IMG/VR virus record: IMGVR_UViG_3300021368_002272
Location: 1-30,965 of that record
Strand: one strand, 5' to 3'
DNA length: 30,965 bases
DNA from: a virus
The position numbers and the translations under genes are program-made. The notes beneath the pieces were generated by a model that was given only the letters and a program-made list of their open reading frames with translations, made no database searches and had not been told where the DNA came from. Below are positions 1 through 19,259 of the stretch, piece by piece; position 1 is the stretch's first letter, and every line of letters begins with the position of its first letter.

Positions 1-3000
1 AATTGGTGTTGGTGTTGGTGATGACTGTCGAACCTGACCTAACTGGTCTGCACCTTGTGCCTCTGCTGCCTTAATTTTGTTAAAGTAAGCAGTAATGAGA
101 GCACGCATCTCATTACCACCATTACTCATAATTTGAGATTGATCAAATGGTTGCCCTGGTCTAAGTTGATCTAAATCCCATCTTTGAGGTCTACCAGACA
201 AGATACCTTCTCTTGTACCATATCTTTCCCATTCACCATGAGTTTTTACATTGGATTGAATGGTTGATGCATTCCAACCCCAAGCATGTGCCAGTCGCGC
301 TGCTTCCAGTGCCATAGCCTGGATTTGTGCTCCAGTAGGAGGATTTTCTGCCCAACCTTTTCTCTCATCATAATAGGTTTGAGTCATACCTTGGTGACCC
401 ATGGCAGCGAGAGACAATCCTACAGAATTATCATTAGCACCGCCAGTATGATTGCTCTTCTTAATGCCATAGTTTTCAGTATTTCTATGTGCCCTACCAT
501 CCCCAGTAAATGTCGTGTGATATCTAGTAGATGGTTGATTGGAGAATCCTCCAGTCCAATGTAAGAAAATTCTCTTCGTCTTATCACCCGCACCTGCATT
601 AAATTCCGTATCTCTAATAGGACCTCCCATTAAAGGTCCATGGTGAGCAGTTACATTCTTCAAATCCTGAGACATTTCAGGAGGAACATCTAATACTGCA
701 TCAATTGATCCTTGTGCTGGACCGTCTGATGCAGGTCTGGATCCAGGTGTCAAACCCGTATCACCAATACCAAACTCAATCTTTTTCTTATCAACTCTGG
801 CAGCCATCTCACGGATGGTAATTATACCGTCTTTATTGACATCTAACGGAGCATTACGATCATATCCTCCTTCTCCAGCACTATACAATGCTTCATCAAG
901 TCCTCTACCAGAGTAAGCAGGAGAAAATATTACAGCATATAATTGACCAGCACTAGGATTATCTGGGAAATATCCAGCATCTTTCCAGTATTGGAAATAC
1001 CTCTCAACATATTTCATCTGTTGTGCTCTTGTCATCTTGACAAGTGCAGCCTGTGTAGTTCCAACTGCAGCAGCAGAATCTTTACTAAACTGAATTAATC
1101 CAACATTTGTACCATTAGATTCTGCAGGATTCAGTCCAGATTCAGACGCCATTATTCCTAATAAATCGCCCTCTCTAATACCAAATTTTTGAGAAACTCT
1201 CTTAACTTCTGCTAAAAACTCCTTATCATTACCAACCCTTTCTGCTGCTGCTTTTCCGCCAACTAATTGAGCACTATCATAACCTGATCCAACAGGTCCA
1301 ACTGGGAAGTCTCCTGCATTAGGAACATCAGGTGCCGGAACAGATTGCTCTGCAGGACGGGTATCAGAAGAAAATACGAGATTGCGGAATCTTTTGCTTG
1401 CCCCACTACCATATCGCAAAAGGACAAGCATATTTTTAATTGCTTCGTCTTGAGTATTTCCTAAGAATCTACCATCATCATGCTTTCTGTAATAAGCACC
1501 ACCCATGTTGGTGATAAATCTACTCGCAATCTGACTATAAGCAACTTTGGTAGCATTACTTGCTTCTGCTAAGTCGAATCCGGGTTCGGTAATTGGTTTA
1601 GCGTCTTCTAGTTCAGTAATAGCGAAAAATTCAGATTCGGACTTTTTCTGACTTCTACCCAGTTCAGCATTATGCTCAATGGCATTAACAAATGCATTCA
1701 ATAACCAAGGATTCTTTCCGTTTCTAGTATCCTTTTCAATATAATCAAACAGATTATTTCCATAGATATGCCAACCATCAGGTTCTCTCTTTGCTCTATA
1801 TCTCTTACCCGCATGGTGAAAAAAGAAACTTTGACCAAGTTTATATCCATAATTTTTTGTAATCTGGGATGCTAAAGTTTTTCCTTCAACTATAGTTGCA
1901 TCATCTCCACCCAATGCACCTTGAGTTACATCACTAATGCCTTCCAAATCATTAACCGGCAATGCCTTATCAGGCATTGTTTTACCACCAGGATATCTAA
2001 TTGGTTTTTCTGAGAACAACGCTGTAACTGCCCTCTGAGTCATTCCAATGAATTCCTGAGTGCCAACAATAAATTGACGAGGATCTGGAATTTCAAATTC
2101 GGCAATTTTACCAAAACCTGCTAATACTGCCCTAAAAGTTGAATGTACAAAGTCTTGGAGTTTGAATTTTTTTAAAGATTCGTATAATCTAGAAAATTTG
2201 TTATTTGCCCAGTCTGCAATGTTACCGCCAATTTCTTTAATGTTGTCCCATGCCCATGAGAAAATAGCACCAGTAATATCACTAGCACGCTTCCAAGAGT
2301 CCTTAACATCCATGGCGAACTTCTCGCCAACACTCTCAAACGATTCACCCATGAACAATCGATATAAGAGATCGCCAGCATATTGACCCAGCATAGAACC
2401 GCCAATGGTTCCAAGAGGACCTAAAAGACTACCAACAGCACCACCAACGGCGGTTCCTGCCATTGAGAATAATGCTTTACCGAGTTTAGATTTATCAAAT
2501 TTAAGAGTCGCTGGTGATATTTGCTTACCAGTTTCTGGATCTATTTTCTCTGGTACAATATCAAAAACCTCTAAGAGACCAGTAAGGATTACTCCCAACC
2601 AAGGAATTCTCTTAAAGAAAGCAGATCCTCCGCTAAAAAGATTTTTTAATAGGGGAATAGAACTTGATAATCCTTGAGCAGTTGCTTTAATTCCTTGCCC
2701 AATTGGTCTAATCGGTGCTGCTAGTTTTGATACCCCGGCTCTTATAGCACGCGGAGTTTGGACTACACCGCGAACAATATTTCCAGGTGCTCTAAAAAGT
2801 CCTCTAGCACCAGATCTAGCTAAATTACTAGTTACTGTCTGGAATCTGTTCTGCTTGATAAATCCTCTTCTGAGGAGTCGTAAATTATCAATCGGACCAG
2901 CTTGACCAGCAAGAGCACGAGACCAAGATTGATTTACACGACTAATCCTAGCAGCCTCACCTCTATTAAATGAAATTGGACCTGCTGTAGGTAAAGTAGA

Positions 3001-4122
3001 TCTAGCAAACCTACCTTGAGGCAGTCCTTGAGGTTTTTGAACTATACCAGGATTCGCTCGCTGCAGAGCCTCGGCTCGCATCCGGTTGGCCAGCATCTGC
3101 TGTGGCGTCATCCGAGAAGATGGACTTCCGCTCTGATTACCAGAACTAACTCTTGACCCAGTTTGAGCAGAACCTATGCGAGCAGCATCAGCAGAAACAG
3201 CGGTTTGATTGCTAGGTTTAGTGGGGATAGGTTTAGTTTTGTCTCTAACCAGATCCCCTGGTTTTGGTTTTGATGTTGGTTTGGTTGTTCTTTTTGCTTT
3301 GGGGTCCGGTTGCGGTCTTCTGCCCTGATTTCTTCTTAGTTTAGCATTCTCTGCTGCTAATCTTTGCTCTCTAAGTCTTAACCGCCTATCAGCAGCATTC
3401 ATCTCGCGAGAACGCAGATTCATGAGACTCATGATCTGCATCATCGTTCCAAAAGGATTGAGCAGAGTTCTCAATCCAACGATCCCGATCATCATCTGAC
3501 CAAGACCCTTCAGTCTCTCTTCGACTGTTTTATTTTCTCCGAATGTATTATTAAATCCTTCTAGAAGGTTATCTTTGATTAACCAACTACCAATTGCAAA
3601 TATTTTTTTCGCTACGAAAGCAACTTTTTCAAAGAATTCTGTAAACTTCTCTCTTACAGAAGGATCTTGGAGTGCCCGTTGCAGATCCTTTGCTGCTTTC
3701 ATTGCAAAGAGAGCACCAAAGAAGGTTAGTGCTGCCTTTGCTAAAGGAGCTAACCAACCAAATAGTCCTCCAAATACCTTTTCCATCCAGGATTTGACTT
3801 TTCCTGTTGGTTTTGGTTGTTCTTTTACTTTTTCCGGTCCCTTAATGACCGAACTTTCTCTCTGTTCTTCTCTTAATCTATCTCTTTCTCTTTGCGCTGC
3901 TCTTCTATCTCTAATCTCCCGTAACTTACTTTCTTTAAGTGATGCATCAGCAACTCCTGAGAGACCGTTAGAAGTTGCTGCAATGCCCGATAAAGTAACT
4001 CCTAGCCCATTTAATGCCTTTGTATTTGCATTCAAAGATGCACCGACATACTTAATGTTTGCCGATGCACCAGATGAAACCCTAGGAGGATCGATTATTT
4101 TATAGACATTAATTTTTGCCAC
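1..4122 (-). CDS. Tape-measure-like tail protein with lytic transglycosylase, EF-hand and amidase domains (C-terminus outside window)
   Basis: The frame is open for 1374 codons from a GTG at 4120-4122 to the window edge. The start follows the upstream TAA directly (TAAGTG) and has GGAG 4 bases before it. The N-terminal half has basic/coiled segments, hydrophobic stretches (about residues 115-145) and a Gly/Ala zipper near residues 540-580, as tape-measure proteins do. A transglycosylase-like domain follows: E994 in ASESGLNP, then VGLIQF near 1008. Residues 1094-1105 form a canonical EF-hand loop (DVNKDGIITIRE). A zinc amidase of the Amidase_2 type lies at about 1183-1320, with probable ligands H1188 (LHWTGG), H1295 (THGEW) and D1316 (RWDL). 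The visible end is a PTPTP linker, so more sequence follows outside the window. Role inferred: sets tail length and opens peptidoglycan during DNA entry. It could also be another large virion protein, but gene order favours tape measure. Confidence 0.75.
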   Translation of the reverse strand, partial: MAKINVYKIIDPPRVSSGASANIKYVGASLNANTKALNGLGVTLSGIAATSNGLSGVADASLKESKLREIRDRRAAQRERDRLREEQRESSVIKGPEKVKEQPKPTGKVKSWMEKVFGGLFGWLAPLAKAALTFFGALFAMKAAKDLQRALQDPSVREKFTEFFEKVAFVAKKIFAIGSWLIKDNLLEGFNNTFGENKTVEERLKGLGQMMIGIVGLRTLLNPFGTMMQIMSLMNLRSREMNAADRRLRLREQRLAAENAKLRRNQGRRPQPDPKAKRTTKPTSKPKPGDLVRDKTKPIPTKPSNQTAVSADAARIGSAQTGSRVSSGNQSGSPSSRMTPQQMLANRMRAEALQRANPGIVQKPQGLPQGRFARSTLPTAGPISFNRGEAARISRVNQSWSRALAGQAGPIDNLRLLRRGFIKQNRFQTVTSNLARSGARGLFRAPGNIVRGVVQTPRAIRAGVSKLAAPIRPIGQGIKATAQGLSSSIPLLKNLFSGGSAFFKRIPWLGVILTGLLEVFDIVPEKIDPETGKQISPATLKFDKSKLGKALFSMAGTAVGGAVGSLLGPLGTIGGSMLGQYAGDLLYRLFMGESFESVGEKFAMDVKDSWKRASDITGAIFSWAWDNIKEIGGNIADWANNKFSRLYESLKKFKLQDFVHSTFRAVLAGFGKIAEFEIPDPRQFIVGTQEFIGMTQRAVTALFSEKPIRYPGGKTMPDKALPVNDLEGISDVTQGALGGDDATIVEGKTLASQITKNYGYKLGQSFFFHHAGKRYRAKREPDGWHIYGNNLFDYIEKDTRNGKNPWLLNAFVNAIEHNAELGRSQKKSESEFFAITELEDAKPITEPGFDLAEASNATKVAYSQIASRFITNMGGAYYRKHDDGRFLGNTQDEAIKNMLVLLRYGSGASKRFRNLVFSSDTRPAEQSVPAPDVPNAGDFPVGPVGSGYDSAQLVGGKAAAERVGNDKEFLAEVKRVSQKFGIREGDLLGIMASESGLNPAESNGTNVGLIQFSKDSAAAVGTTQAALVKMTRAQQMKYVERYFQYWKDAGYFPDNPSAGQLYAVIFSPAYSGRGLDEALYSAGEGGYDRNAPLDVNKDGIITIREMAARVDKKKIEFGIGDTGLTPGSRPASDGPAQGSIDAVLDVPPEMSQDLKNVTAHHGPLMGGPIRDTEFNAGAGDKTKRIFLHWTGGFSNQPSTRYHTTFTGDGRAHRNTENYGIKKSNHTGGANDNSVGLSLAAMGHQGMTQTYYDERKGWAENPPTGAQIQAMALEAARLAHAWGWNASTIQSNVKTHGEWERYGTREGILSGRPQRWDLDQLRPGQPFDQSQIMSNGGNEMRALITAYFNKIKAAEAQGADQLGQVRQSSPTPTPI

Positions 4123-4308
4123 TTATCTCCGATTTTGCAGTTCTTGTTCTTTCAATCTCTCTTCCTCTTCTTTGAGGAATTGAACTAACATGGTAATGTA
4201 AATGTCTTTTTCCCAGGGCATCAAATTTTCAATGTATTCAATCTGCCACTTGTGGTGATGAATTAGTGCAAAATTAGTTTGATAATAAGTCATCAAACTA
4301 GTATGCAT
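4123..4308 (-). CDS. Downstream (-1 frame) part of a putative tail assembly chaperone; T-like extension
   Basis: This is a 61-codon ORF rich in Glu/Arg/Lys at its C-terminus (FLKEEEERLKEQELQ) with an aromatic N-terminal half. Its ATG at 4306-4308 has no Shine-Dalgarno: the bases before it are the T-run and GCGTAGCCCTA. Its frame is -1 relative to the gp26-like gene and is open back to the slippery heptamer at 4320-4326, so a -1 shift would make one protein of about 300 residues (235 from the first frame, four junction codons, then these 61). It ends immediately before the GTG of the tape-measure-like gene. By analogy with lambda G/GT it probably recruits the tape measure. Independent translation as a 61-residue protein remains possible. 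Confidence 0.7.
   Translation of the reverse strand: MHTSLMTYYQTNFALIHHHKWQIEYIENLMPWEKDIYITMLVQFLKEEEERLKEQELQNRR
4275..4300 (-). repeat. Perfect 9-bp hairpin downstream of the slippery heptamer
   Basis: TAGTTTGAT and ATCAAACTA form a perfect stem with an 8-base loop, starting 19 bases after the heptamer on the transcript. It could stimulate frameshifting, although known stimulators usually lie 5-9 bases away. It lies inside the 61-codon ORF. Confidence 0.45.
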
Positions 4309-4313
4309 TAGGG

Positions 4314-5024
4314 CTACGCGAAAAAAGCGGACAGACCCTCAAGAACAATATCATTATCATTCCCAGTATTGGGGTTTGTAACAGTTACAGTATGCTTCAA
4401 TTTAGGCATGGTCTCAAAGAATTCCTGAATTGCCTTAAATTGGGAAGATGTCAACCCATCAAGAAACTCAAGTTTTTCTTTATGAGAAAAATCTGCACAA
4501 TCATACAGTTGCTCCGAATCAGCAACAGTCTTCATGCATTTTGCAGAAACATCGAATAACTGATCAACTCCCGGAACATCATCCATGAAGTTCATTTCAA
4601 CGAATGTTGCAAGGTTAGGATATCCCATAGTGAGGATCATACCATCACCCAACTTAATATCAGTTTTGTGCTTTCTGTCTTTCTGGACTTTAATGTCAGA
4701 AAGGGGAATCGTAGTCTTAACAACAGTCATATTATCATCAGGACAGGTGACATTCACATCAACTTGTTCACCAACAGATCTTTGACGAATTTGAAGGAAA
4801 ACGAACTCGATGTCAAAGGTAGGGAGATCTTCTACATCAACGATATCAGTACATTCTTTAATGATGGTAGAAATTGCTCTCATGATTTCTTCCTGTTCAC
4901 CCATTTCGGTCGCAATCAAAAGAAGTTTTTCTTCCTTTACCAAAAATGGTCTAAAGTTCACAGTTCTGCCATCAGAAGGCAGTTTCATTTTGTACTTGGG
5001 AAGGTTTAACTTAGGTAATGCCAT
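4314..5024 (-). CDS. gp26-like baseplate/tail assembly protein (T4 base plate protein family)
   Basis: The product is 236 residues. The N-terminal pattern FRPFLVKEEKLLLIA, the internal FDIEFVFLQIRQRSVGE and a CP dipeptide shortly afterwards fit the T4 gp26 family (T4 gp26 is about 208 residues). T4 gp26 is listed as a baseplate hub protein. Here the gene lies directly before a short -1-frame ORF and a tape-measure-like gene, so a role as tail assembly chaperone (lambda gpG equivalent) is also plausible. A late box lies 24 bases upstream of the ATG. No convincing Shine-Dalgarno is seen. The last sense codons contain the slippery run described separately. Confidence 0.8.
   Translation of the reverse strand: MALPKLNLPKYKMKLPSDGRTVNFRPFLVKEEKLLLIATEMGEQEEIMRAISTIIKECTDIVDVEDLPTFDIEFVFLQIRQRSVGEQVDVNVTCPDDNMTVVKTTIPLSDIKVQKDRKHKTDIKLGDGMILTMGYPNLATFVEMNFMDDVPGVDQLFDVSAKCMKTVADSEQLYDCADFSHKEKLEFLDGLTSSQFKAIQEFFETMPKLKHTVTVTNPNTGNDNDIVLEGLSAFFA
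4320..4326 (-). promoter_or_regulatory. Putative -1 programmed frameshift site T_TTT_TTC
   Basis: On the minus strand the gp26-like gene ends GCT TTT TTC GCG TAG. The heptamer TTTTTTC sits exactly in the X_XXY_YYZ register used for tandem -1 slippage. After the slip the reading is CGC GTA GCC CTA ATG and runs into the 61-codon ORF without a stop. The zero-frame stop is only one codon further on. Confidence 0.7.
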
Positions 5025-5048
5025 AGAATTTAGTCAAATCAGTAATAT

Positions 5049-5055
5049 TATTTAG
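5049..5055 (-). promoter_or_regulatory. Late promoter box CTAAATA
   Basis: The minus strand reads GCGCTAAATAATATTAC, a match to the cyanophage/T4 late box, between the tail-tube-like gene and the gp26-like gene. The spacing allows a leader of roughly 20 bases. Confidence 0.6.
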
Positions 5056-5064
5056 CGCGATTTT

Positions 5065-5841
5065 TTAATCTAGTTTTGTAGATTCATCATCAAGAACATT
5101 GTCAAGATTACTTGCTCTTACGGATACATTATCATTAGTGAAGAATCTATATCTTTCATAAGTAAATCCGACTGTTATGGTATTCAACCTTGCATCTCTT
5201 TGATTCAATTGAGTAGTTCCGATATTTTGAGGCCATAACTTTCGGATTTCCATACATGAAACAACAGAATTTACTTGAATTTTTTGTCTTCTGCCTTTGT
5301 CGGGAAAAACGACGCCAAGTCTCGAATTTGGATAGGCGTTATTTTCAATCGCTCTTCTATAAACTCCCCCATTAACTGTACCTCTTTCCATTTTATAAAT
5401 TCTCATTCTTCTACAACAATATCCATTATAATCCTCCACATAGTTGTTAGCATCTGCCATAATCATATTCATCCAAGCTTCAAAAAATTGTCTCATAAAT
5501 TGATTTCGAGGCATCTGAAAAGTAATATTAACACTACCATATCCAGTTCCAGTCGCATATTTGGTCGGAACTCCAATGTCCATAACTTGACCACTCATCA
5601 TTTGTCTGCTAGGCATATTAATAGCTGTAGCATAAATATTAATCATTTTGTAAGTATCACCCCTATCCGGTTGCGAAAACAGGGTGTTTCTAGGATCTCT
5701 GCTACCGTTAAATGCCCTAGGGGTAGACATATTAATAAAGAATAGATTAGTAGTGCTTAATCCATTATTATCACTATTAATAAAATTATGTACAGCACTA
5801 TTATTATAATATTCGACTGCGTTTGCTGAAGGGATACCCAT
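5065..5841 (-). CDS. Tail-tube-like protein (gp19/gp54-type fold suspected)
   Basis: The product is 258 residues. The central pattern VNITFQMPRNQFMRQFFEAW followed by MNMIM, and the C-terminal LNTITVGFTYERYRFF, resemble T4-type tube proteins (gp19) and the baseplate tube initiator gp54, in which a conserved FF-AW segment precedes a turn and a final beta strand. The family match is from memory and is moderate. The protein is Asn/Arg rich, lacks a signal peptide and would be cytoplasmic before assembly. The start ATG overlaps the gp4 stop (TAATG), with AAGGAG 11 bases upstream, so the two are translationally coupled. The neighbours gp4, gp48, gp53 and gp26-like support a tail role. A dedicated baseplate protein is the main alternative. 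Confidence 0.65.
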   Translation of the reverse strand: MGIPSANAVEYYNNSAVHNFINSDNNGLSTTNLFFINMSTPRAFNGSRDPRNTLFSQPDRGDTYKMINIYATAINMPSRQMMSGQVMDIGVPTKYATGTGYGSVNITFQMPRNQFMRQFFEAWMNMIMADANNYVEDYNGYCCRRMRIYKMERGTVNGGVYRRAIENNAYPNSRLGVVFPDKGRRQKIQVNSVVSCMEIRKLWPQNIGTTQLNQRDARLNTITVGFTYERYRFFTNDNVSVRASNLDNVLDDESTKLD

Positions 5842-6260
5842 TAGACTTTAAGCTCCTTTTCGGTAATTATTTTAAATTCCCAATTATTATCTTTGCAAAA
5901 TTCTGTAGCTGCCTTCCATTTTGCCTGATTAACACTCCAAGTGACAACTTCATTAATATACCTTTTAGTAACTCTTTTTTGAGTTTTAGGTTCTTTGGTT
6001 TGTTTTAAGGGTTTCACCTCAACCAAATATTTCTGGGATCCGATTTTCAAATAGAAATCTGGAAAATACCTATGTCTTCTTCCGTCAACAGGAGAAATGT
6101 AAGGTATAACAATTTCTTCACTACCCCATTCTAGAATAGATGGTGTAATATCACACCATTTCATAAATTTATACTCCCAAGAAGACCGATATATGATGTT
6201 ATTCACATCTCCTCGATACTTATGGGGGAAGGAAGCTCGGTATCTTCCTTGATATCTCAT
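5841..6260 (-). CDS. 4: Head completion protein gp4 (PD-(D/E)XK nuclease-like)
   Basis: The product is 139 residues (T4 gp4 is about 150). The segment NNIIYRSSWEYKFMKWCD is typical of gp4 homologues. A nuclease-like core follows: RYFPDFYLK, then YLVEVKPLKQ, which together give the D and E-x-K residues of a PD-(D/E)XK/TnsA-type fold. In T4 this protein closes the filled head, with gp50/gp65/gp2, so that the tail can join. The ATG is close behind a divergent late promoter and has no clear Shine-Dalgarno. The stop overlaps the ATG of the tail-tube-like gene. Confidence 0.85.
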   Translation of the reverse strand: MRYQGRYRASFPHKYRGDVNNIIYRSSWEYKFMKWCDITPSILEWGSEEIVIPYISPVDGRRHRYFPDFYLKIGSQKYLVEVKPLKQTKEPKTQKRVTKRYINEVVTWSVNQAKWKAATEFCKDNNWEFKIITEKELKV

Positions 6261-6265
6261 AAATA
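6258..6265 (+). promoter_or_regulatory. Late promoter box CATAAATA for gp48-gp53 operon
   Basis: The plus strand reads CTCATAAATAATATT, giving a predicted leader of about 37 bases before gp48. It overlaps the first codons of gp4 on the other strand. A second match, TATAAATA at 6295-6302, lies only 6 bases before the gp48 ATG and would give an almost leaderless message. Confidence 0.5.
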
Positions 6266-6281
6266 ATATTCGACTACTGAT

Positions 6282-6288
6282 TATTTAG
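6282..6288 (-). promoter_or_regulatory. Late promoter box CTAAATA for gp4 operon
   Basis: The minus strand reads GCCTAAATAATCAG, about 20 bases upstream of the gp4 ATG. It is arranged back-to-back with the plus-strand late box at 6258-6265, so the two predicted transcripts start within or across each other. Confidence 0.6.
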
Positions 6289-6308
6289 GCACTTTATAAA
6301 TATAAGTT

Positions 6309-7436
6309 ATGGGCACCAAGAGATATCCATTATCACCCCCCGAACCTTCTGACTCAGGAAGTAACGAAGATCCGCAAACTCTGGCGTCGGACTGGTTGTA
6401 TATTCATCGCCACAGATTAGTAGATGATAATAAAGCTTCTGGCAACTATCAATATTCCAGAAAAAACACTATTTCTGGACCCAAAAAAGTAAACTATGAT
6501 TCAGAATGCTGCTATATTGCATTACCTGGTAATATTCAAACTTCTTATGGACCTGCATATAGAAGAATGGACATTGGCGGATCTGGTGTTGCCTTAGCAG
6601 ATCTGCTTGGTGGTGGTATGAATATGTCCGATTTGGCGGAAAAACTACAAGATGCCGCACAAGTTGCTCTTCCTGAATTCAGTACAGCAACAGCAATTTC
6701 GTTGGCAAATAACTTCAATGCTTTCTTAGGATTGCAAGGAAATGTTGATATCAATTCTTTGCAACAAATGAATCATGGTAAAATCTTTAATCCGTTTAGT
6801 GAACAAATATTCTCTGGTGTTGCATTCAGAACTCATAGTTTTGCCTTTAAAATGTTTGCACGAGATGAGCGAGAAGCTTCAGAAATTTATGACATCATTG
6901 AATATATTAAACAGGGAGCAATGCCTGGCATTGATGGAGGAGACTTCCCAGAGACATTAGTCAATAAAAATAAAACTTACGAAAAAGCAAACGGAAAGCA
7001 AAACAAAAAAGGTAAAGAAATTGAATATGATGATTTAGAATATAAGAGAAAAGAAGGGAATGTTTTTGATGAATCAATCTTCAAAACCATGAACAAAAAC
7101 TCTTATGCTAAATCAGACAGGTACATGACTGTGCCAGATCTCTTTGATCTAAGATTCGTAAGAATGCCATATACCGAAGGAAAGAATCCAAGAGATGTTG
7201 TCAAACCAGGTAGTTCACAAACTCCGTCGGGAAGAAATAGCAACAGAAAAGAGTTGCACTTCAAAATTCACCCCTCAGTGTGTACTGGAGTTCAAGTTAA
7301 CTATACTCCAGATAGCACTTATGTTGCAAGAAAGCGTATTGGACAGGAAGAGTTGCATGTGCCCGCTGTTGTCTTGTCATGCTCTTTCTTAGAAACTCGT
7401 TTGATAACGAGACGTGATGTTAGAGATGGATACTAA
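6309..7436 (+). CDS. 48: Baseplate tail tube cap gp48
   Basis: The product is 375 residues, close to T4 gp48 (364). The diagnostic region is GKIFNPFSEQIFSGVAFRTH followed by FAFKMFARDEREASEIYDII, which matches the tube-associated baseplate protein. A Lys/Glu/Tyr-rich insertion lies at about residues 220-255. The C-terminal LETRLITRRDV matches the family's conserved end. In T4, gp48 with gp54 caps the baseplate and nucleates tube polymerisation. It is first in a plus-strand operon with gp53, opposite in direction to the other tail genes. No clear Shine-Dalgarno precedes the ATG. Confidence 0.85.
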   Translation: MGTKRYPLSPPEPSDSGSNEDPQTLASDWLYIHRHRLVDDNKASGNYQYSRKNTISGPKKVNYDSECCYIALPGNIQTSYGPAYRRMDIGGSGVALADLLGGGMNMSDLAEKLQDAAQVALPEFSTATAISLANNFNAFLGLQGNVDINSLQQMNHGKIFNPFSEQIFSGVAFRTHSFAFKMFARDEREASEIYDIIEYIKQGAMPGIDGGDFPETLVNKNKTYEKANGKQNKKGKEIEYDDLEYKRKEGNVFDESIFKTMNKNSYAKSDRYMTVPDLFDLRFVRMPYTEGKNPRDVVKPGSSQTPSGRNSNRKELHFKIHPSVCTGVQVNYTPDSTYVARKRIGQEELHVPAVVLSCSFLETRLITRRDVRDGY

Positions 7437-7455
7437 ACTAAGGAGATAAAAACCA

Positions 7456-8373
7456 ATGGCCGGATACTTTTCATACTTACCAAACATTTACATTGCAAAA
7501 GGAGTCGATAATGATGAACCTACAGAGTATGCTCTTGTAAAAAACATATTTCGACGACTTGCTGTTGCAGATTTAAATCAAAGATATACTGCTTTTGAAA
7601 GAGCACGAATTGAGGAAGGCGACACCCCTTCCTCAATTGCAACCGAATATTATGGCGATCCATTTATGGATTGGTGCATTATGTTGACAAATAATATTAC
7701 TAATCTATACGAGCAATGGCCTAAACATGATACAGATTTTCTTGATTATGTTATAGCAAAATATGGAGATGATCTAGGAGCAGTTCATCACTATGAAACT
7801 AAATTAATTGAATATGAAGGAGATACTATCGTTCCAGAGGGTATTGAAGTAAATGAAAACTTCACTGTTACTATGCCGGATGGGACAGTAATCACTAAAG
7901 CTAATACAAGAGTAGCAATTACAAATTATGATTATGAAGAATATGAAAATGAACAGAAAAAATGGATTTTAATTCCAACTCCAACTACTGTAGCATTAAT
8001 GAAAGATGAGTTGGAAGAAAAATTAACTTATAAAAAATGCCCAGAGTTAGATGAGCAAGGAAATAAAAAAACTCCTATGAGTTTGGTTGGAAGATTCCTA
8101 TCTAAAAATACTGGTGTTACTAGACAGCAGTTGATTACATTAGATCCTGCTATGGCAGCACCTTCAGAGACTCAAAGTAGTGCCTCTGTAGGAAGTTCAT
8201 CTACATCAGAAACAGTGACACCTACAACAACCCCAACAACATCTACAACAACCCCAACAACATCTACGACGAGTACAAGTACAACAAACACTACAACATC
8301 TAGCACTTCTTCAGGAAGTTCTAGTTCTTCTAGTTCTTCTAGTTCTTCGGGTGGCGGATATGGAGGATATTGA
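7456..8373 (+). CDS. 53: Baseplate wedge gp53 with long Ser/Thr-rich C-terminal tail
   Basis: The N-terminal 110 residues carry the gp53 hallmarks: an N-terminal YFSYLP, EEGDTPSSIATEYYGDPF and WCIMLTNNITNLYEQWP, a LysM-like element. T4 gp53 joins neighbouring wedges in the baseplate. T4 gp53 is 196 residues; this one is 305. The excess is a C-terminal low-complexity tail from about residue 235, made of Thr/Pro repeats, then Ser runs, then GGGYGGY. The start has a good AAGGAG 9 bases upstream and lies 19 bases after gp48. The tail is encoded by tandem DNA repeats (8224-8265 and 8323-8349). Confidence 0.88.
   Translation: MAGYFSYLPNIYIAKGVDNDEPTEYALVKNIFRRLAVADLNQRYTAFERARIEEGDTPSSIATEYYGDPFMDWCIMLTNNITNLYEQWPKHDTDFLDYVIAKYGDDLGAVHHYETKLIEYEGDTIVPEGIEVNENFTVTMPDGTVITKANTRVAITNYDYEEYENEQKKWILIPTPTTVALMKDELEEKLTYKKCPELDEQGNKKTPMSLVGRFLSKNTGVTRQQLITLDPAMAAPSETQSSASVGSSSTSETVTPTTTPTTSTTTPTTSTTSTSTTNTTTSSTSSGSSSSSSSSSSSGGGYGGY
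8224..8349 (+). repeat. Tandem repeats encoding the gp53 tail
   Basis: A perfect 21-base unit is present twice (8224-8244 and 8245-8265, encoding Thr/Pro/Ser). Three 9-base AGTTCTTCT-type units follow (8323-8349, poly-Ser). Such repeats change length by slippage. Confidence 0.85.
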
Positions 8374-8548
8374 TCCTAGAGACTTTTATACTCTAGATAT
8401 ATCAAAAGACGGACTTGCATTAATATACAGGTCCGTCTGTTTTCATTTGGAAAAATGGCCTGGAGGTCATCCAGAAGAGCAAGTTGCATTACAACAACTA
8501 AAAGATAATTTATTTCGCATTATTCTTGAAAAAACCTTAGAGACCTAA
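8360..8548 (+). CDS. Small conserved cyanophage protein after gp53
   Basis: This is a 62-residue acidic protein (MEDIDPRDFYTLDISKDGLA, then a YRSVCFHLEKWPGG segment) with predicted helices and no membrane segment. It overlaps the last codons of gp53, so it is probably coupled to it. A GTG at 8351 in the same frame is an alternative start adding three residues; ATG at 8360 is preferred. Proteins like this follow gp53 in other cyanomyoviruses as I recall, but no function is known. The gene itself contains an inverted repeat that could act as a terminator. Confidence 0.75.
   Translation: MEDIDPRDFYTLDISKDGLALIYRSVCFHLEKWPGGHPEEQVALQQLKDNLFRIILEKTLET
8407..8444 (+). terminator. Possible terminator-like hairpin inside the small gene
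   Basis: AGACGGAC (8407-8414) and GTCCGTCT (8431-8438) form a perfect 8-bp stem with a 16-base loop, followed by GTTTTC. The U-tract is short, so it may only attenuate transcription after gp53. Confidence 0.35.
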
Positions 8549-8569
8549 TTTTTACCGGGATTTTTTTTG

Positions 8570-8604
8570 CGACTTTCTGGTAACTAAAAGTCGATTTTCG
8601 TTTT
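8570..8604 (+). terminator. Terminator of the gp48-gp53 operon (first hairpin)
   Basis: CGACTTT (8570-8576) pairs with AAAGTCG (8587-8593) and is followed by ATTTTCGTTTT on the plus strand. It lies 22 bases after the last plus-strand stop codon. Confidence 0.55.
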
Positions 8605-8608
8605 GGGG

Positions 8609-8743
8609 TCAATAAAAATGTTCATCATCCTCCCAACTGGACGGTTCTTGAAAGAGTTCGTCCAGTTTTATTTTTTCTATCCTCTTGGTTAACAGAAGCA
8701 TCTCATATTCATCTGGCAACCAATTTTCCTCATCAACCCCCAT
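8609..8743 (-). CDS. Small acidic protein, 44 residues
   Basis: The ORF runs from ATG 8741-8743 to TGA 8609-8611. The sequence begins MGVDEENWLPDEYEMLLL and ends SSWEDDEHFY. It overlaps the stop of the secreted glycine-zipper gene by 11 bases, which suggests translational coupling. It is strongly acidic with an amphipathic LLLTKRIEKIKLDELF helix. Similar tiny proteins ending in WEDDEHFY occur in cyanophages as I recall. No function known. A plus-strand terminator hairpin overlaps it. Confidence 0.6.
   Translation of the reverse strand: MGVDEENWLPDEYEMLLLTKRIEKIKLDELFQEPSSWEDDEHFY
8636..8676 (+). terminator. Terminator of the gp48-gp53 operon (second hairpin)
   Basis: ACTGGACG (8636-8643) pairs perfectly with CGTCCAGT (8659-8666), followed by TTTATTTTTT. 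It lies inside the coding sequence of the convergent 44-residue minus-strand gene. Confidence 0.65.
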
Positions 8744-9176
8744 CAATCTGACATCCTACGAGGGCACCGCCTACAATACCGAGAGGGATTGCCCAGAGGC
8801 GTCCTTCTTTACGAGATGCAGCAGCACCAATGCCACCACCTGCTAGACCACCAAGAACAGATCCTTCAATACAAGAATTGTCATCAACCTTTGCCCGAGG
8901 ACGAGGAGGAGCAGAGGGAACATAACGAGGGGGAACATATCCTTGATCGTAAATGACCCCTCTCTTCTGCTCACATGGAACCTCCACACGCTCCTTAAAA
9001 GATTTAACATATCCAGGATTCCTCAAGGTTCCTGGTACATATTCTTCACGATAAACCCGCTTGAAGCATTTTTGTTGGCGAGACCAACCGGGTTGATACT
9101 CATCGGTATGATACGGTTGTGCCAATGCAGGTGCAGCAGATGAGAGCATGAGCAGTGCAGCAAGTGCTAGTTTCAT
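8733..9176 (-). CDS. Exported glycine-zipper protein
   Basis: The product is 147 residues with a clear signal peptide (MKLALAALLMLSSAAPALA, cleavage before QPYH). A Tyr/Arg/Pro-rich middle with two Cys (in QQKCFKR and VPCEQK) precedes a C-terminal glycine zipper (GSVLGGLAGGGIGAAA, then IPLGIVGGALVGC), the pattern of small 17-kDa-antigen/glycine-zipper envelope proteins. It would sit in the periplasm or outer envelope of the host. It has a consensus sigma70 promoter (TTGACG-17-TATAAT) and a late-like box upstream, but no good Shine-Dalgarno. It sits alone downstream of the gp32 terminator, like an inserted cassette. Function unknown; envelope modification or superinfection exclusion are guesses. 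Confidence 0.8.
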   Translation of the reverse strand: MKLALAALLMLSSAAPALAQPYHTDEYQPGWSRQQKCFKRVYREEYVPGTLRNPGYVKSFKERVEVPCEQKRGVIYDQGYVPPRYVPSAPPRPRAKVDDNSCIEGSVLGGLAGGGIGAAASRKEGRLWAIPLGIVGGALVGCQIDGG

Positions 9177-9206
9177 TGGAAGAAGTTGATTCGTCTTTAT
9201 TTATCT

Positions 9207-9235
9207 ATTATAGCATTAAAAAGGAGGGGCGTCAA
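9207..9235 (-). promoter_or_regulatory. Sigma70 promoter TTGACG-17-TATAAT; -35 is the loop of a terminator
   Basis: -35 is at 9230-9235 and -10 at 9207-9212 on the minus strand, with 17-base spacing. The -35 hexamer is exactly the six-base loop of the gp32 terminator. A GATAAATA late-like box (9198-9205) follows the -10. Confidence 0.8.
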
Positions 9236-9244
9236 CCCCTCCTT
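9217..9244 (-). terminator. Terminator downstream of gp32
   Basis: AAGGAGGGG / CCCCTCCTT forms a 9-bp stem (9221-9229 with 9236-9244) with a 6-base loop. It is followed on the minus strand by a T-run and AATGC. Confidence 0.85.
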
Positions 9245-9305
9245 CTACGTCAGGTAGCGAATCCGTCGTAGAGATGTCGCGCACGAACGAGCGACATCTT
9301 ATTTA

Positions 9306-10262
9306 TCAGTCTTCCTCAGCGAGTTTAGCGAAGTAAGAGAGAGTGTCATCCTCATCCTCTACAGGAGAGGCAGCAACTGCTTTCTCTCGGAAATCAGACA
9401 CCTCTTGACCCCATCCTTTGTTGGAAGGAGTGATGTCAGGATCGTTGAATCCGCCACCAACAGGAGTGGCAAACACTGCTTCCTCAGACTCATCAATCTG
9501 AGCATGACGAGCAGCTACAGTCTTACCAAGCACCATGTCCAGACGCTTCTTCAGATCCTCATAGGACTTGAAGTTCTTGGGTGCTTCAAACTCTGCAAGG
9601 GAATAGCACTGCTTCCAGAGGCTTTCCAGTTTGTCATCATCAAAGTTACCGAGGGTGCCAGGTGCAGCGAACTCAGACTTATCATAGTTCCAGTAACCTT
9701 CGACCTTGCGGATCTTGACTTTGAAATCAGCACCCTTCCAGAGGTTGAAAGGATCCAGAGGAGTCTCGTCTGCAAACTGAGGTTGCATTGCTTCCACCAG
9801 TTTGTCAAAGATCTTCTTACCGTACTTGTACAGGAAGACTTTACCTTCGTTCTCGGGGTGAGCAGGGTCACTCACAACATAGATGTTGGAGTAGTAAGAA
9901 AGTTTACGCTTCTGAGCACGGGCGATTGCCTTGTCAGACTCGATGCCACTGTTCCACAGTTCGCGGTTCAGTTCACCGACAGGATCATCCTTGCCCAGAG
10001 TGGTCAGAGAGTTCTCGATGTACCATTGTCCACCAGGACCCTTGAAGGCATGAGACCAAACCTTTGCGAAAGGCAGTTCCTCTCCCTCAGGAGCAGGAAG
10101 GAATCGGATAACGGCAAACCCGTTACCAGACTTGTCCATCTCAGGTTTCCAGAGACGCTCATCTGCGCCACCACCCTGAGGTTGATTGAGTTTCTCGATC
10201 TCCTGAGTCAGACGAGCAAAAGCACTGCCGCTAGACGCTTTTTTGAGAGATGCAAAAGACAT
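9306..10262 (-). CDS. 32: Single-stranded DNA-binding protein gp32
   Basis: The product is 318 residues (T4: 301). Conserved elements are GNGFAVIRFLP (about 46-56), SHAFKGPGGQWYIE, KRKLSYYSNIYVV, PENEGKVFLYKYGKKIFDK and an acidic C-terminus (EDEDDTLSYF, then EED) that recruits partners such as gp59. T4 gp32 binds zinc through one His and three Cys. Here the His is kept (H71), but the aligned segment (NSLTTLGKDDPVGELNR) has no Cys, so zinc binding is probably lost. GGAG lies about 9 bases before the ATG. A late box and a sigma70-like promoter lie upstream, and a strong terminator follows. Confidence 0.95.
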   Translation of the reverse strand: MSFASLKKASSGSAFARLTQEIEKLNQPQGGGADERLWKPEMDKSGNGFAVIRFLPAPEGEELPFAKVWSHAFKGPGGQWYIENSLTTLGKDDPVGELNRELWNSGIESDKAIARAQKRKLSYYSNIYVVSDPAHPENEGKVFLYKYGKKIFDKLVEAMQPQFADETPLDPFNLWKGADFKVKIRKVEGYWNYDKSEFAAPGTLGNFDDDKLESLWKQCYSLAEFEAPKNFKSYEDLKKRLDMVLGKTVAARHAQIDESEEAVFATPVGGGFNDPDITPSNKGWGQEVSDFREKAVAASPVEDEDDTLSYFAKLAEED

Positions 10263-10312
10263 GTTAGTATTCTCCGTATTGAGTGTGTGTTTTGTATGTT
10301 TGCTACTGGGTT

Positions 10313-10341
10313 ATCGTAGCATATTATTTAGTTCCCGTCAA
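10313..10341 (-). promoter_or_regulatory. Dual promoter upstream of gp32: TTGACG-17-TACGAT with nested CTAAATA
   Basis: -35 TTGACG is at 10336-10341 and extended -10 TGC-TACGAT at 10313-10318, with a 17-base spacer. The late box CTAAATA (10325-10331) lies inside the spacer and contains the TAA stop of the upstream gene. Confidence 0.55.
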
Positions 10342-10660
10342 GTTCCCGCTCTGCCGCTTTCTCAAGTGTCTCCACCATGGCATCCATGCACTCAGCAAGA
10401 TGCTGATACCCAAATGCTTGAGAGAGGGCATTGATTCGGTTCTTCATGTCTGCTGCCTCAGGATCTTCCGAAGCAGCAAGGCACAGTCTACCATAGAATG
10501 TGCGTTGTTTGTCAATTAGACCTTTGCAATCTTCAATATGATCTAATTTTTCTGATTTGTTCATCGTTCCAAGTTGACTGGTCATCGATGCAATTTGTTG
10601 ATAGGTATCAAAGATGTCTTGTAAATTACTTTGTACCTGTTCTGATTTAAAAAAACTCAT
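10328..10660 (-). CDS. Conserved small protein between gp59 and gp32
   Basis: The product is 110 residues, mostly helical (MSFFKSEQVQSNLQDIFDTY, then QQIASMTSQLG), with three Cys in the C-terminal half and an acidic end. It overlaps the gp59 stop by 4 bases, so the two are coupled. Position in the gp59-gp32 cluster suggests a replication-linked role, but no family was recognised. The stop codon is part of the late box that serves gp32. Confidence 0.75.
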   Translation of the reverse strand: MSFFKSEQVQSNLQDIFDTYQQIASMTSQLGTMNKSEKLDHIEDCKGLIDKQRTFYGRLCLAASEDPEAADMKNRINALSQAFGYQHLAECMDAMVETLEKAAERELDGN

Positions 10661-11256
10661 AGCTTTGTCCTTATCTGAGTTAAGATCTCTTGTCTATAAC
10701 GCTCACAACTTCCCACAAGGAATGGTTCATACTTTTTGATGCGATTCCTAACATCTTTCCATATCGGATCTGCCAATTTTGTATCAAATTTAGATACAAA
10801 TCCTAAGCATTTTTCAAATATGACCAATGTTTCTAAGGATATATCTCCAGCAAGGTAATGCTTTAGAACAAGAGGGTGTTGTTTGTCTTCTATAATGAAT
10901 ATCTTATCAAACTTATCTTGGTATGGAGAGGAATAGTTATTCAAAAGTACATGGACATCTTGTCTTAAATTATATCCAAGAGATTCATTATAAACTTTCC
11001 ACTTTTCATAGTTACCATCACTAAAAGACTTAATGTATCCCTTAGGATCATGCATAAAATTAGCAACAAAGTAGTTTAAAATCTCACTGTCTTTATACTT
11101 TGATGCAATCTTATCAAAGAAATAACGATCTCTTCTTTCTCGAAAAGATTTTTCAGAGGCATTTACTTTGCCTCTGTATTTCACATAATCATAATTATCT
11201 TTGGTGAAGTGTTGTCTTAATGCAAGGTACATTTTGTACACTTCAAAACCGGTCAC
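10657..11256 (-). CDS. 59: gp59, loader of the gp41 DNA helicase
   Basis: The product is 199 residues (T4: 217). The conserved N-terminal pattern is VYKMYLALRQHF, then YDYVKYRGKV and FRERRDRYFFDKIASKY, which parallels T4 gp59 (YKLYL, YDVIKYNW, RRDKYFFQKLSEKY). In T4 it binds fork DNA and gp32 and loads the replicative helicase. The start overlaps the gp33 stop by 4 bases. Its position between gp33 and gp32 is the usual T4-like order. Confidence 0.9.
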   Translation of the reverse strand: MTGFEVYKMYLALRQHFTKDNYDYVKYRGKVNASEKSFRERRDRYFFDKIASKYKDSEILNYFVANFMHDPKGYIKSFSDGNYEKWKVYNESLGYNLRQDVHVLLNNYSSPYQDKFDKIFIIEDKQHPLVLKHYLAGDISLETLVIFEKCLGFVSKFDTKLADPIWKDVRNRIKKYEPFLVGSCERYRQEILTQIRTKL

Positions 11257-11504
11257 AATGGCAGGACTCCTTTCGATGATTGCTTCATAAAGTTTAACCG
11301 CATTGCCTCATGACGCAACCTTTCTTTAAGAGGTTTTGACAAAAGTTTAGGTACAGTTTCAAGTTCAATATCATTCTCATGGCAATAGGTTACAATTGCT
11401 TCAACATAAGAAATCAATCCATTACTCGTTTTAACGAGTCTCTCAATGTCCGCAGAAAATTTTGTTGGGTTTAAAAATGAATCATTAATTTTAGATTTAG
11501 ACAT
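11253..11504 (-). CDS. 33: gp33, late promoter transcription co-activator
   Basis: The product is 83 residues from the ATG at 11502-11504, chosen because AGGGG lies 5 bases upstream and it overlaps the nuclease stop (ATGTCTAA). A longer start at 11618 would overlap that gene deeply. The core (IERLVKTSNGLISYVEAI, then TYCHENDIE) matches T4 gp33 (about 112 residues). T4 gp33 bridges RNA polymerase, the gp55 sigma factor and the gp45 clamp at late promoters, which fits the many late boxes in this window. Confidence 0.85.
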   Translation of the reverse strand: MSKSKINDSFLNPTKFSADIERLVKTSNGLISYVEAIVTYCHENDIELETVPKLLSKPLKERLRHEAMRLNFMKQSSKGVLPL

Positions 11505-12174
11505 TTCTTCCCCTAACAAATTCTTCGATATAGGACTTGAGTAATTGTAAATAGTCATCAAGATTGTACTTCTGAAAGATTTGAATAGTTCCTTCTTCGG
11601 TGGCGATAAGTGTGACAATTTTCTTTACCTCTATTCCTGTACGCTCAAGGAACATTGCTGCATATGCAGTCTCTTGCACAAAATAGTGCTCGATGTAAGA
11701 TTCCTTTTTTTCTTTAGTTGAAGTTTTGAAATCGATCACTGCCAATTCGCCATCAAATTCGGCAATACAGTCTACACGACCTGCTAAACCTAAGTAATGA
11801 GAGTATAAAAAACCCTCAAGACAATGAATGTTATTGATTCGGTTTAAGTCGGACTTTGCAGACTGAAACATTCTAACAGACAAAGGATTGTTTGCCAAGT
11901 ATCTGTCGGTATTCAAATCACCTTTGAAATAATCTTCGGTGATGCTATGGAATGCTGTGCCTCGCTGTGTTGCACGAGCAGTGATGCGATTTGCCTCGTC
12001 TTCACCTATTTTGGTTCTCCACTTTTTAAAGAACTGAGCGTTTTTATACGATGTGATAGAGGTTACACTCGGATAATATTTATCAGCTCCAGGGATAGGA
12101 TAAAACCTAACCCCGTTTTCATTCACTGGTTCAACATCGGGAGTGTCGATGTCAACATTAATAAACTTGAACAT
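11497..12174 (-). CDS. RecB-like PD-(D/E)XK exonuclease
   Basis: The product is 225 residues. Motifs of the RecB/MGME1-type nuclease family appear in order: RGTAFH (71-76), GRVD with D135, the catalytic DFK (D148, K150) and QETAYAAM (from 167), the Q-x-x-x-Y motif. It should degrade or trim DNA ends with metal ions. It lies between phoH and gp33. Cyanomyoviruses carry a homologue here as I recall, often just called exonuclease. Recombination or host DNA breakdown are both possible roles. Confidence 0.85.
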   Translation of the reverse strand: MFKFINVDIDTPDVEPVNENGVRFYPIPGADKYYPSVTSITSYKNAQFFKKWRTKIGEDEANRITARATQRGTAFHSITEDYFKGDLNTDRYLANNPLSVRMFQSAKSDLNRINNIHCLEGFLYSHYLGLAGRVDCIAEFDGELAVIDFKTSTKEKKESYIEHYFVQETAYAAMFLERTGIEVKKIVTLIATEEGTIQIFQKYNLDDYLQLLKSYIEEFVRGRNV

Positions 12175-16695: not shown

Positions 16696-17778
16696 TCAAC
16701 CGATGCTAGGAGCAGTCAGGGCCACAGGTGTGGACTCAACTGCTGCAAGATCGAGCGGGAAGTTGTGTGCGTTACGCTCGTGCATGACTTCCATTCCGAG
16801 TCCTGCTCGGTTGAGGATGTCTGCCCAAGTGTTGATGACTCGTCCTTGTGACTCAACGATTGACTGGTTGAAGTTGAAACCGTTGAGGTTGAAAGCCATG
16901 GTCGAGACGCCGAGGGCGGTAAACCAGATTCCCACCACTGGCCACGCAGCGAGGAAGAAATGCAGACTTCTAGAATTGTTAAAAGATGCATACTGGAAGA
17001 TCAAACGACCAAAGTAACCGTGAGCGGCAACGATGTTGTAAGTCTCTTCTTCTTGACCGAACTTGTAACCATAGTTCTGAGATTCAGTTTCAGTAGTTTC
17101 ACGAACGAGTGAAGAAGTAACTAGTGAACCATGCATTGCAGAGAACAGTGAACCGCCAAAGACACCAGCAACTCCAAGCATATGGAAGGGGTGCATCAGG
17201 ATGTTATGTTCTGCTTGGAAGACAAGCATGTAGTTAAATGTACCAGAGATTCCGAGAGGCATTGCATCTGAGAAACTTCCTTGACCAAAAGGATAAACCA
17301 GGAACACTGCTGAGGCAGCAGCAACAGGAGCGGAATATGCCACACAGATCCAAGGGCGCATACCAAGACGGTAAGAAAGTTCCCATTCACGACCCATATA
17401 AGCAAAGATGCCGATAAGAAAGTGAAAGATTACCAGTTGGAAAGGACCGCCATTGTAAAGCCATTCATCCAGAGATGCTGCTTCCCAAATGGGATAGAAG
17501 TGAAGTCCAATAGCGTTGGAACTAGGAACAACAGCACCAGAAATGATGTTGTTACCGTACATGAGAGAACCTGCAACTGGTTCACGAATGCCATCGATGT
17601 CCACAGGAGGAGCACCAATGAAAGCAATGATGAAACAGACGGTTGCTGCGAGCAGAGTTGGGATCATCAGCACACCGAACCAACCGACATAAAGACGGTT
17701 GTTGGTGGAGGTGACCCAGGAGCAAAAGTCTTGCCAAGTGGAAGAACTTCCGCGAGTTGAAAGAGTTGAACTAGACAT
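16696..17778 (-). CDS. psbA: Photosystem II D1 protein
   Basis: The product is 360 residues, full length and uninterrupted (no intron). Conserved blocks include [60 protein letters not shown] and [20 protein letters not shown]. The residue equivalent to D1 position 130 is Glu (GREWELS), the high-light D1:2 type rather than Gln. The C-terminal extension after LDLA is present for CtpA processing. The protein replaces photodamaged host D1 in the thylakoid during infection. It has a sigma70 promoter, a leader of about 160 bases and a strong terminator. No Shine-Dalgarno is seen before the ATG. Confidence 0.98.
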
Positions 17779-19229: not shown

Positions 19230-19259
19230 ATTATATAGCATTTCTATACACCCTGTCAA
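19230..19259 (-). promoter_or_regulatory. Sigma70 promoter of the hli pair, TTGACA-18-TATAAT
   Basis: -35 is at 19254-19259 and -10 at 19230-19235. The TGA stop of the upstream oxygenase-like gene lies inside the -35 (ACT TGA CA). Confidence 0.8.

Follow-up and report, generated by a model that had tools for sequence, protein, structure and literature searches.

Predicted cell wall hydrolases on a very large tail protein of a T4-like cyanophage fragment, one of a paralogous pair that probably stands in for the gp5 lysozyme

The stretch of DNA analysed here (the window) is IMG/VR record IMGVR_UViG_3300021368_002272, classed as a virus by the database and 30,965 bases long. It has the appearance of a T4-like cyanophage fragment, given its gp26-, gp4-, gp48- and gp53-like genes, its DNA matches to cyanophages and a psbA-like open reading frame (ORF). 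The subject of this study is the ORF at its edge, gene A, which by its sequence codes for the first member of a paralogous pair of very large tail proteins, A and B, in T4-like cyanophages. Window A carries a lytic transglycosylase (LT) domain with a calcium loop and a zinc amidase domain (Table 1). We consider it probable that the virion-associated enzymes piercing the cell wall have been moved in these phages from the gp5 spike to A and B, which bear them as exchangeable cassettes. This is based on the observed domains, folds, catalytic residues, gene order, paralogy, cassette diversity and gp5 proteins with no detectable lysozyme; from these we infer the tail-lumen place of the pair, the timing of its action, its enzymatic activity and its membrane and tape-measure roles.

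The LT domain matches a bacteriophage lytic transglycosidase, PDB 9udh, with E 6e-15 (phmmer against PDB). Lytic transglycosylases are marked by a catalytic Glu in an ES motif, a GLxQ motif and a downstream Tyr. G1008 and Y1062 are as invariant as the catalytic E994 among the 56 non-redundant LT domains compared, and Q1011 is kept in 55 of them. The structure predicted for residues 940-1132 (pLDDT 90.2) superimposes best on 9udh (Z 16.9, 2.8 A, 147 residues aligned, 34% identity), followed by MltC and MltF (Z 9.7) and Slt70 (9.3), with MltE and phiKZ gp144 also among the matches. By sequence and predicted fold the domain is a GH23-type lytic transglycosylase. The 9udh chain comprises the same domain including the calcium loop region, but it has 164 residues in all, whereas the LT of the window is embedded in a tail protein. 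The model also matches the LT-like domain (24-31% identity) of PDB 9k2v, whose title is cyanophage A4 pre-ejectosome; this parallels the present case, with a wall enzyme ejected by a different type of cyanophage.

The calcium loop, DVNKDGIITIRE, is a predicted Ca site whose ligand positions 1, 3, 5 and 12 are D, N, D and E and whose position 6 is Gly. In the LT model it forms a helix-loop-strand-helix (model residues 149-178) between the last two helices. A PROSITE-like EF-hand pattern has a single match in the protein, at residue 1094, and is present in 24 of 2000 protein shuffles; a stricter pattern occurs in 1 of 5000 shuffles. The loop is canonical in 50 of the 56 non-redundant LT relatives and is therefore, as far as sequences can tell, a standing structural part of this LT family. 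In an alignment of 16 LT domains D1094 and G1099 are present in all and the last ligand is D/E in 15. These 16 comprise 12 out of 218 records, the window itself and a further three B proteins from cyanophages; cyanophages, baseplate hubs, jumbo phages, other tailed phages and the tailless phage FLiP are represented. Another LT alignment used 34 of the 40 listed relatives. Gain of the loop by the window protein alone was ruled out, the same loop being found across the LT relatives. In Flavobacterium phage FLiP, which belongs to another realm (L099, 211-876), the same LT domain has the Ca-loop region with Asn as last ligand, pointing to wide exchange of the LT module.

The earlier note had recognised the 12-residue EF-hand loop, which both the pattern and the alignment confirm, and had suggested that calcium ties the activity to outside versus inside. 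Such a sensor would keep the LT off inside the virion and host and switch it on in the periplasm, and the canonical ligands of the loop are what it would need. We regard it as highly improbable, because the loop is general to the family, including the LTs of hubs, jumbo phages, other phages and FLiP, and because in 4 of the 56 domains the third ligand position is Lys and the catalytic Glu is retained. Furthermore, passages of a study of bacterial family 3 LTs, which bear a Ca-binding EF-hand, tie their calcium to stability in E. coli and report a proposed protein-contact role in P. aeruginosa (PMC12547810).

The LT is followed by the amidase domain, which scores E 4.2e-6 and 27.5 bits against a cut-off of 26 for Pfam Amidase_2; its counterpart in a sibling contig (L008, see below) scores 23.1 bits and stays under this cut-off. 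The zinc triad of Amidase_2 enzymes consists of His, His and Cys/Asp. The amidase alignment has 20 rows, and all 20 keep the correspondingly placed putative ligands H1188, H1295 and D1316 as well as E1297. The predicted structure is weaker here (pLDDT 70, best E 1.4e-3), and its best PDB matches, AmpDh2, AmiA, AmpD, T7 lysozyme and peptidoglycan recognition proteins (PGRPs), suggest an AmpD/PGRP fold. The proposal of an amidase with three candidate zinc ligands is thus upheld by the score, the conserved ligands and the fold of zinc amidases.

All landmarks of the earlier note (E994, the loop at 1094-1105, H1188, H1295 and D1316) lie at those residues of an ORF on the minus strand, and profile and structure comparisons both give hydrolase folds for the E994 and H1188 regions. 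Its claim of two peptidoglycan hydrolases on one large tail-locus polypeptide is borne out by profiles, conserved catalytic residues and predicted folds, and family membership supports the predicted cutting of glycan and stem peptide. These domain and loop features are real and not due to chance.

The part of A beyond the window edge can be judged from IMG/VR contig L008, found with residues 945-1374. It is 91% identical over residues 1098-1374 (91.4% over 833 bases of DNA), and its A ORF extends 690 residues past the window edge. The extension contains a Peptidase_M23 domain (Pfam, E 1.8e-19), a long hydrophobic stretch and the C-terminal motif common to A proteins; it is followed by B (2,059 aa) and then by the gene at the hub position. 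Assuming the same end, window A would have about 2,064 aa, and an M23 peptidase, seen in the sibling, is likely the third enzyme of the window phage. The expectation that the missing C-terminus may hold more thus finds support in a close relative. A simple A-B fusion was ruled out: the sibling has the full C-terminus of A and then a separate B. None of the other complete B proteins read (<=1,456 aa) is as long as the sibling B (L010:2933-9112). No hydrolase was found in the sibling B by Pfam at E<=0.5 and phmmer against PDB gave nothing useful; its residues 1598-1666 show an M15-like H..D..HxG spacing, which is no more than a pattern match.

The genomic slot of the pair is well defined. In six of the six isolates first fetched, gp26 is followed by gp51 or a different small gene, then by A and B and by tail protein T4-GC 15 at the hub position, and gp5 lies further on in those isolates whose stretch reached it. 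The same slot is present in syn9, S-CREM2, S-N03, S-H34, S-SCSM1 and IMG/VR contigs. In T4 the genes beside gp26 are gp51, gp27, gp28 and gp29; the hub-position protein showed no relation to T4 gp27 in a comparison with the single T4 sequence. Complete A was available from 41 and complete B from 53 of 80 loci, the others being truncated or lacking the gene; filtering at 85% identity, with the six isolates included, left 34 A and 39 B. The N-terminus of window A aligns to the conserved start of these 34 A proteins, and the A and B profiles (35 A, 39 B) share their N-terminal 200 residues with probability 99.7 and E 1.6e-26. The freshwater cyanophage S-CRM01 has just one gene in the slot (L187, 7910-10504), which encodes 864 aa including a lysozyme domain.

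The slot is not confined to cyanophages: a search with the LT domain gave 80 loci, and in 48 of them a gp26-, hub- or gp5-like gene is a neighbour. In L120 the first protein carries M23 and the second an LT followed by an amidase, which is the order of the window; across the two domains this second protein and window A are 43% identical (E 1e-94). Where cyanophage B proteins have both enzymes, the amidase precedes the LT. Because of this shared order in L120 and the reversed one in cyanophage B, the LT-amidase block of the window looks to have been acquired as a unit.

The enzymes on A and B are exchangeable cassettes, as can be seen from their diversity. Filtering of 52 complete pairs at 80% identity gave 37 non-redundant pairs (the window and its sibling were excluded, neither A being complete), and our own HMMs recognised a hydrolase on B in 27 pairs, on A in 8 and on both in 6. 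Eight classes are represented (LT, Amidase_2, GH24 lysozyme, GH19, GH73 glucosaminidase, Hydrolase_2, M23 and M15), in 13 combinations with "none" counted. These HMMs were seeded with proteins that they later score, which inflates the E-values, and they miss cases such as an M23 on one B that was found by Pfam. The Pfam tallies at E<=0.01 agree in outline: M23 2, Amidase_2 1, lysozyme 1 and M15 1 among 35 A proteins scanned; Amidase_2 10, Hydrolase_2 10, glucosaminidase 6, M15 4, SLT 3, lysozyme 2 and M23 1 among 39 B proteins. Among the A proteins read, the combination of LT and amidase occurs in the window only. Lysins and tape measures are generally known to shuffle their domains, according to parts of PMC10684548. 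The changing set of eight classes offers a natural panel for the matching of cell-wall chemistry by phages.

T4 gp5 is the textbook tail lysozyme, a single chain with an OB fold, a GH24 domain and a beta-helix. Gp5_OB was matched by all 35 gp5 proteins scanned (T4 and 34 cyanophage proteins), while Phage_lysozyme PF00959 was matched by the T4 control only (1/35, E 1.3e-12) and by 0 of the 34 from cyanophages. A search with the T4 lysozyme domain brought up three A/B proteins but, at E<10, not one of the 44 cyanophage gp5 ORFs. The 34 were chosen by hand from the 44 ORFs as less redundant; the sibling gp5 (L010) is in both sets. The gp5-like protein of S-CREM2 has the OB fold and no lysozyme by Pfam, and that of S-SCSM1 matched no Pfam family at E<=0.1. 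Window A itself has no match to Gp5_OB or PF00959 at E<=1 and hence is not a tail lysozyme of the T4 gp5 type. The earlier remark that the enzyme lies elsewhere than on T4's gp5 therefore holds, since T4 gp5 scores with PF00959 and the cyanophage proteins do not. Kyanoviridae gp5 proteins with no lysozyme domain detected (L002:17292-19823, L005:12929-15439) are labelled "baseplate hub and tail lysozyme" in GenBank and PHROG, and A/B genes carrying wall-enzyme domains are labelled endolysin or hypothetical. Cyanophage genomes widely copy the tail-lysozyme label onto a gp5 with no detectable lysozyme domain.

Taken together, A and B would sit in the tail lumen or hub. When the phage meets its host and the sheath contracts, A and B would be set free in the periplasm and open a local hole in the wall, with A cutting the glycan (LT), the MurNAc-L-Ala anchor of the stem peptide (amidase) and the cross-link (M23, as in the sibling). 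The hydrophobic glycine-zipper segments may help DNA to cross the inner membrane; besides that in Table 1, the hydropathy scan of window A found hydrophobic segments at 116-144 and 503-523. The A/B enzymes would replace the lysozyme that T4 carries on gp5. If so, two genes that now bear the label endolysin or hypothetical account for wall piercing, and perhaps for tail length, in these abundant marine viruses, and cultured phages would allow direct tests of both. The part of the pelagimyophage paper available assigns cell-wall adaptation to gp5 divergence and leaves the tape measure unidentified (PMC7029224).

The presence of the pair in virions is known from two other phages. ORF208 and ORF209 of S-CREM2 occupy the A and B positions, and the proteomic passages of its paper give 73 and 71 unique peptides for them against 40 and 25 for the neighbouring spike proteins (PMC10665884). 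An N-terminal A profile built without the S-CREM2 protein finds it with E 1.7e-7. In S-SCSM1 the positions are occupied by ORF213 and ORF214, likewise reported from virions in the sections seen of PMC9602691.

An alternative is that A is an endolysin-type protein for progeny release and its presence in virions a carry-over. PHROG 790, 1200 and 5867 are labelled endolysin, as is A itself in the RefSeq entries of several cyanophages, and the S-SCSM1 authors allow in the text consulted for proteins staying in suspension after CsCl purification (PMC9602691). Such a role agrees poorly with the size of the proteins, which have 594-2,064 aa and are to a large extent non-enzymatic, with a gene that, in the loci read, is placed between those for hub assembly and the one at the hub position, and with peptide counts above those of the spike neighbours in S-CREM2. 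The window also contains a better candidate for a separate endolysin, a 200-aa ORF at 17998-18600 (-) with a Phage_lysozyme2 match (E 3.6e-9), membership in PHROG 512 (unknown function) and a hydrophobic signal-like N-terminus. We therefore find the endolysin explanation quite unlikely.

Several points speak against the relocation of the wall enzyme from gp5 to A and B. The authors of S-CREM2 call ORF208/209 lysis proteins, non-structural and possibly lying in the capsid (PMC10665884), and those of S-SCSM1 judged ORF213/214 unlikely to be structural and perhaps remaining from the lysate (PMC9602691), as far as the excerpts of both papers go. The N-terminal B profile does not find S-CREM2 B, whose orthology is suggested by its position and enzyme. 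The virion support is drawn from orthologues in other phages and the enzymatic support from sequence and predicted folds, and the fragment ends within A, so that the B gene and the 3' end of A lie outside. No hydrolase was recognised on either protein in 8 of the 37 pairs. The cyanophage gp5 proteins read (735-919 aa) are larger than T4 gp5 and could hold an unrecognised enzyme between the OB fold and the C-terminus. Finally, the window protein misses the Pfam SLT cut-off (E 0.026, 14.6 vs 21.3 bits), which the homologous domains of S-8S29, S-MbCM6 and L120 pass; its LT is too divergent to reach it, and the weak score does not contradict the fold.

The earlier note also called the protein tape-measure-like. 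Position, size, glycine zipper, virion orthologues and a trend in length agree with this, while no relation to T4 gp29 was found (A and B compared with a single gp29 sequence, hhalign probabilities 0.2 and 0.1) and there are two candidate proteins instead of one. The glycine-zipper region matches a probable tape measure protein, 9ki1_g (phmmer against PDB, E 2.9e-4), and window A has weak PHROG tape-measure matches. Tail lengths of 418 nm in S-CREM2 (L104, 4484-13555), 173 nm in S-SCSM1 (both from passages of their papers), 138 nm in S-N03 and 129 nm in S-H34 go with A proteins of 1565, 950, 933 and 936 aa, and B follows nearly the same order (1456, 1131, 722 and 735 aa). Both are longest in the 418-nm phage, and the lengths fit a tape-measure role for either or both; four pairs are a lead rather than a test and cannot separate A from B.

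It follows that a tape-measure function of A is plausible. The stronger claim, compatible with wall piercing by the pair, is that A is the true tape measure setting tail length, with the wall enzymes as an add-on as in siphophage tape measure proteins (TMPs). We hold this for possible, somewhat short of an even chance: the place beside gp26/gp51, the zipper, the PHROG matches and the A lengths are in its favour. On the other hand, besides the parallel B lengths and the lack of a detected gp29 relation, S-CRM01 with a tail of 140-170 nm has its single 864-aa gene in the slot. The helical rise is usually 1.5 A per residue, at which neither A nor B alone reaches 418 nm. The S-CREM2 paper, which reports the longest tail, lists A and B as non-structural endolysins and names no tape measure in the passages available (PMC10665884), and its long A and B may supply one. 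A further variant is that marine T4-like phages have dispensed with the gp5 lysozyme and that A and B form a two-part paralogous tape measure jointly setting tail length, with cassettes swapped as hosts change. It seems to us rather unlikely; if true, the window lineage (A of about 2,064 and sibling B of 2,059 aa) would have one of the longest contractile tails known and a three-enzyme piercing protein. No printed statement of A/B as tape measures was found in the open-licence literature.

DNA near-matches of bases 1-12000 are exclusively Synechococcus and Prochlorococcus phages and cyanophages (263 records), and the psbA-like ORF, recognised by translation alone, lies at 16696-17778. The stop of the 56-aa ORF at the gp51 position adjoins the start of gene A. 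Residues 265-400 of A are probably disordered, judging by their composition. The gp53-like protein has a C-terminal low-complexity tail of ~70 residues, Ser/Thr/Pro- and Gly-rich. Two adjacent overlapping ORFs at 19256-19798 and 19773-20339 (-) look like tandem paralogues with similar histidine motifs by eye, and are perhaps 2OG-Fe(II) oxygenase-like.

Table 1. Features of gene A and of the genes beside it in the window.
Feature	Position	Strand	Basis
Gene A ORF, 1374 aa, GTG start at 4122, open at window edge	4122 to 1	-	stop-free down to base 1
N-terminal domain (residues 1-245), common to paralogous A and B	3388..4122	-	A/B profile comparison; PHROG 790
Pro/Ser/Thr/Gln/Lys-rich stretch, residues 265-400	2923..3330	-	read off translation
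Hydrophobic glycine-zipper segment, residues 547-590	2353..2484	-	hydropathy scan
LT domain, residues 966-1119	766..1227	-	9udh match; model; Foldseek and VIA-align
Catalytic Glu E994 of LT	codon 1141-1143	-	kept in 56/56 non-redundant LT domains
12-residue EF-hand-type Ca loop DVNKDGIITIRE, residues 1094-1105, within LT domain	808..843	-	sequence, alignment, model
Zinc amidase domain Amidase_2, residues 1176-1361 (Pfam 1181-1296)	40..597	-	Pfam, alignment, model
Short ORF, 56 aa, gp51 position (baseplate hub assembly catalyst)	4123..4293	-	sequence; position as in relatives
gp26-like baseplate hub protein	4314..5024	-	PHROG 150, E 5.9e-81
Tail-tube-like protein (T4-GC 334 position)	5065..5841	-	PHROG 45, E 1.9e-34
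gp4-like head closure protein	5841..6260	-	PHROG 218, E 2.3e-68
gp48-like baseplate tail tube cap	6309..7436	+	PHROG 230, E 1.2e-81
gp53-like baseplate wedge	7456..8373	+	PHROG 232, E 3.2e-90

T4-like cyanophages with no recognisable gp5 lysozyme and a paralogous pair with exchangeable enzymes instead have no printed account that we found in the open-licence literature, nor did we find there a printed statement that cyanophage gp5 is devoid of lysozyme. T4 gp5 is also a virion-borne wall enzyme for entry in the same wider group of T4-like phages, but it has one GH24 domain inside the spike, whereas the cyanophage enzymes reside on separate large A/B proteins. The nearest precedents are RaK2 gp078 and the CBB baseplate proteins, in which, according to the portions seen of PMC3622015 and PMC5259590, lysozyme domains are likewise relocated outside the T4 gp5 arrangement; these remain on proteins of spike or baseplate type, whereas those of the cyanophages are on two paralogues encoded between gp26 and the hub.

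S-CREM2 ORF208/209 and S-SCSM1 ORF213/214 share with the window the slot and the wall hydrolases, with the A-type N-terminal region in both A proteins and presence in virions, and differ in their enzymes (GH19 and GH24 in S-CREM2, glucosaminidase and VanY in S-SCSM1). The bacterial family 3 LTs (Slt35/MltB, SltB1-3) similarly combine an SLT catalytic domain with an EF-hand-type Ca loop, which in SltB2 has 17 residues, within an insertion of the catalytic domain (passages of PMC12547810), versus 12 in the window. None of them is among the 50 VIA-align rows or the Foldseek rows shown for the LT model, which does not exclude kinship.

Enzymes on tape measure proteins are already known. SPbeta CwlP has two of them. 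Passages of a review describe muralytic TMPs of T5, TM4 and phiIPLA35 (PMC6116005), and enterococcal TMPs carry an LT, no other lysin in TMPs being seen in that survey as far as the part consulted goes (PMC10194240). Like A and B, these are large tail proteins with LT, muramidase or peptidase domains; they are single proteins, whereas A and B are two paralogues of T4-like myoviruses that swap their enzymes and carry up to three on one protein.

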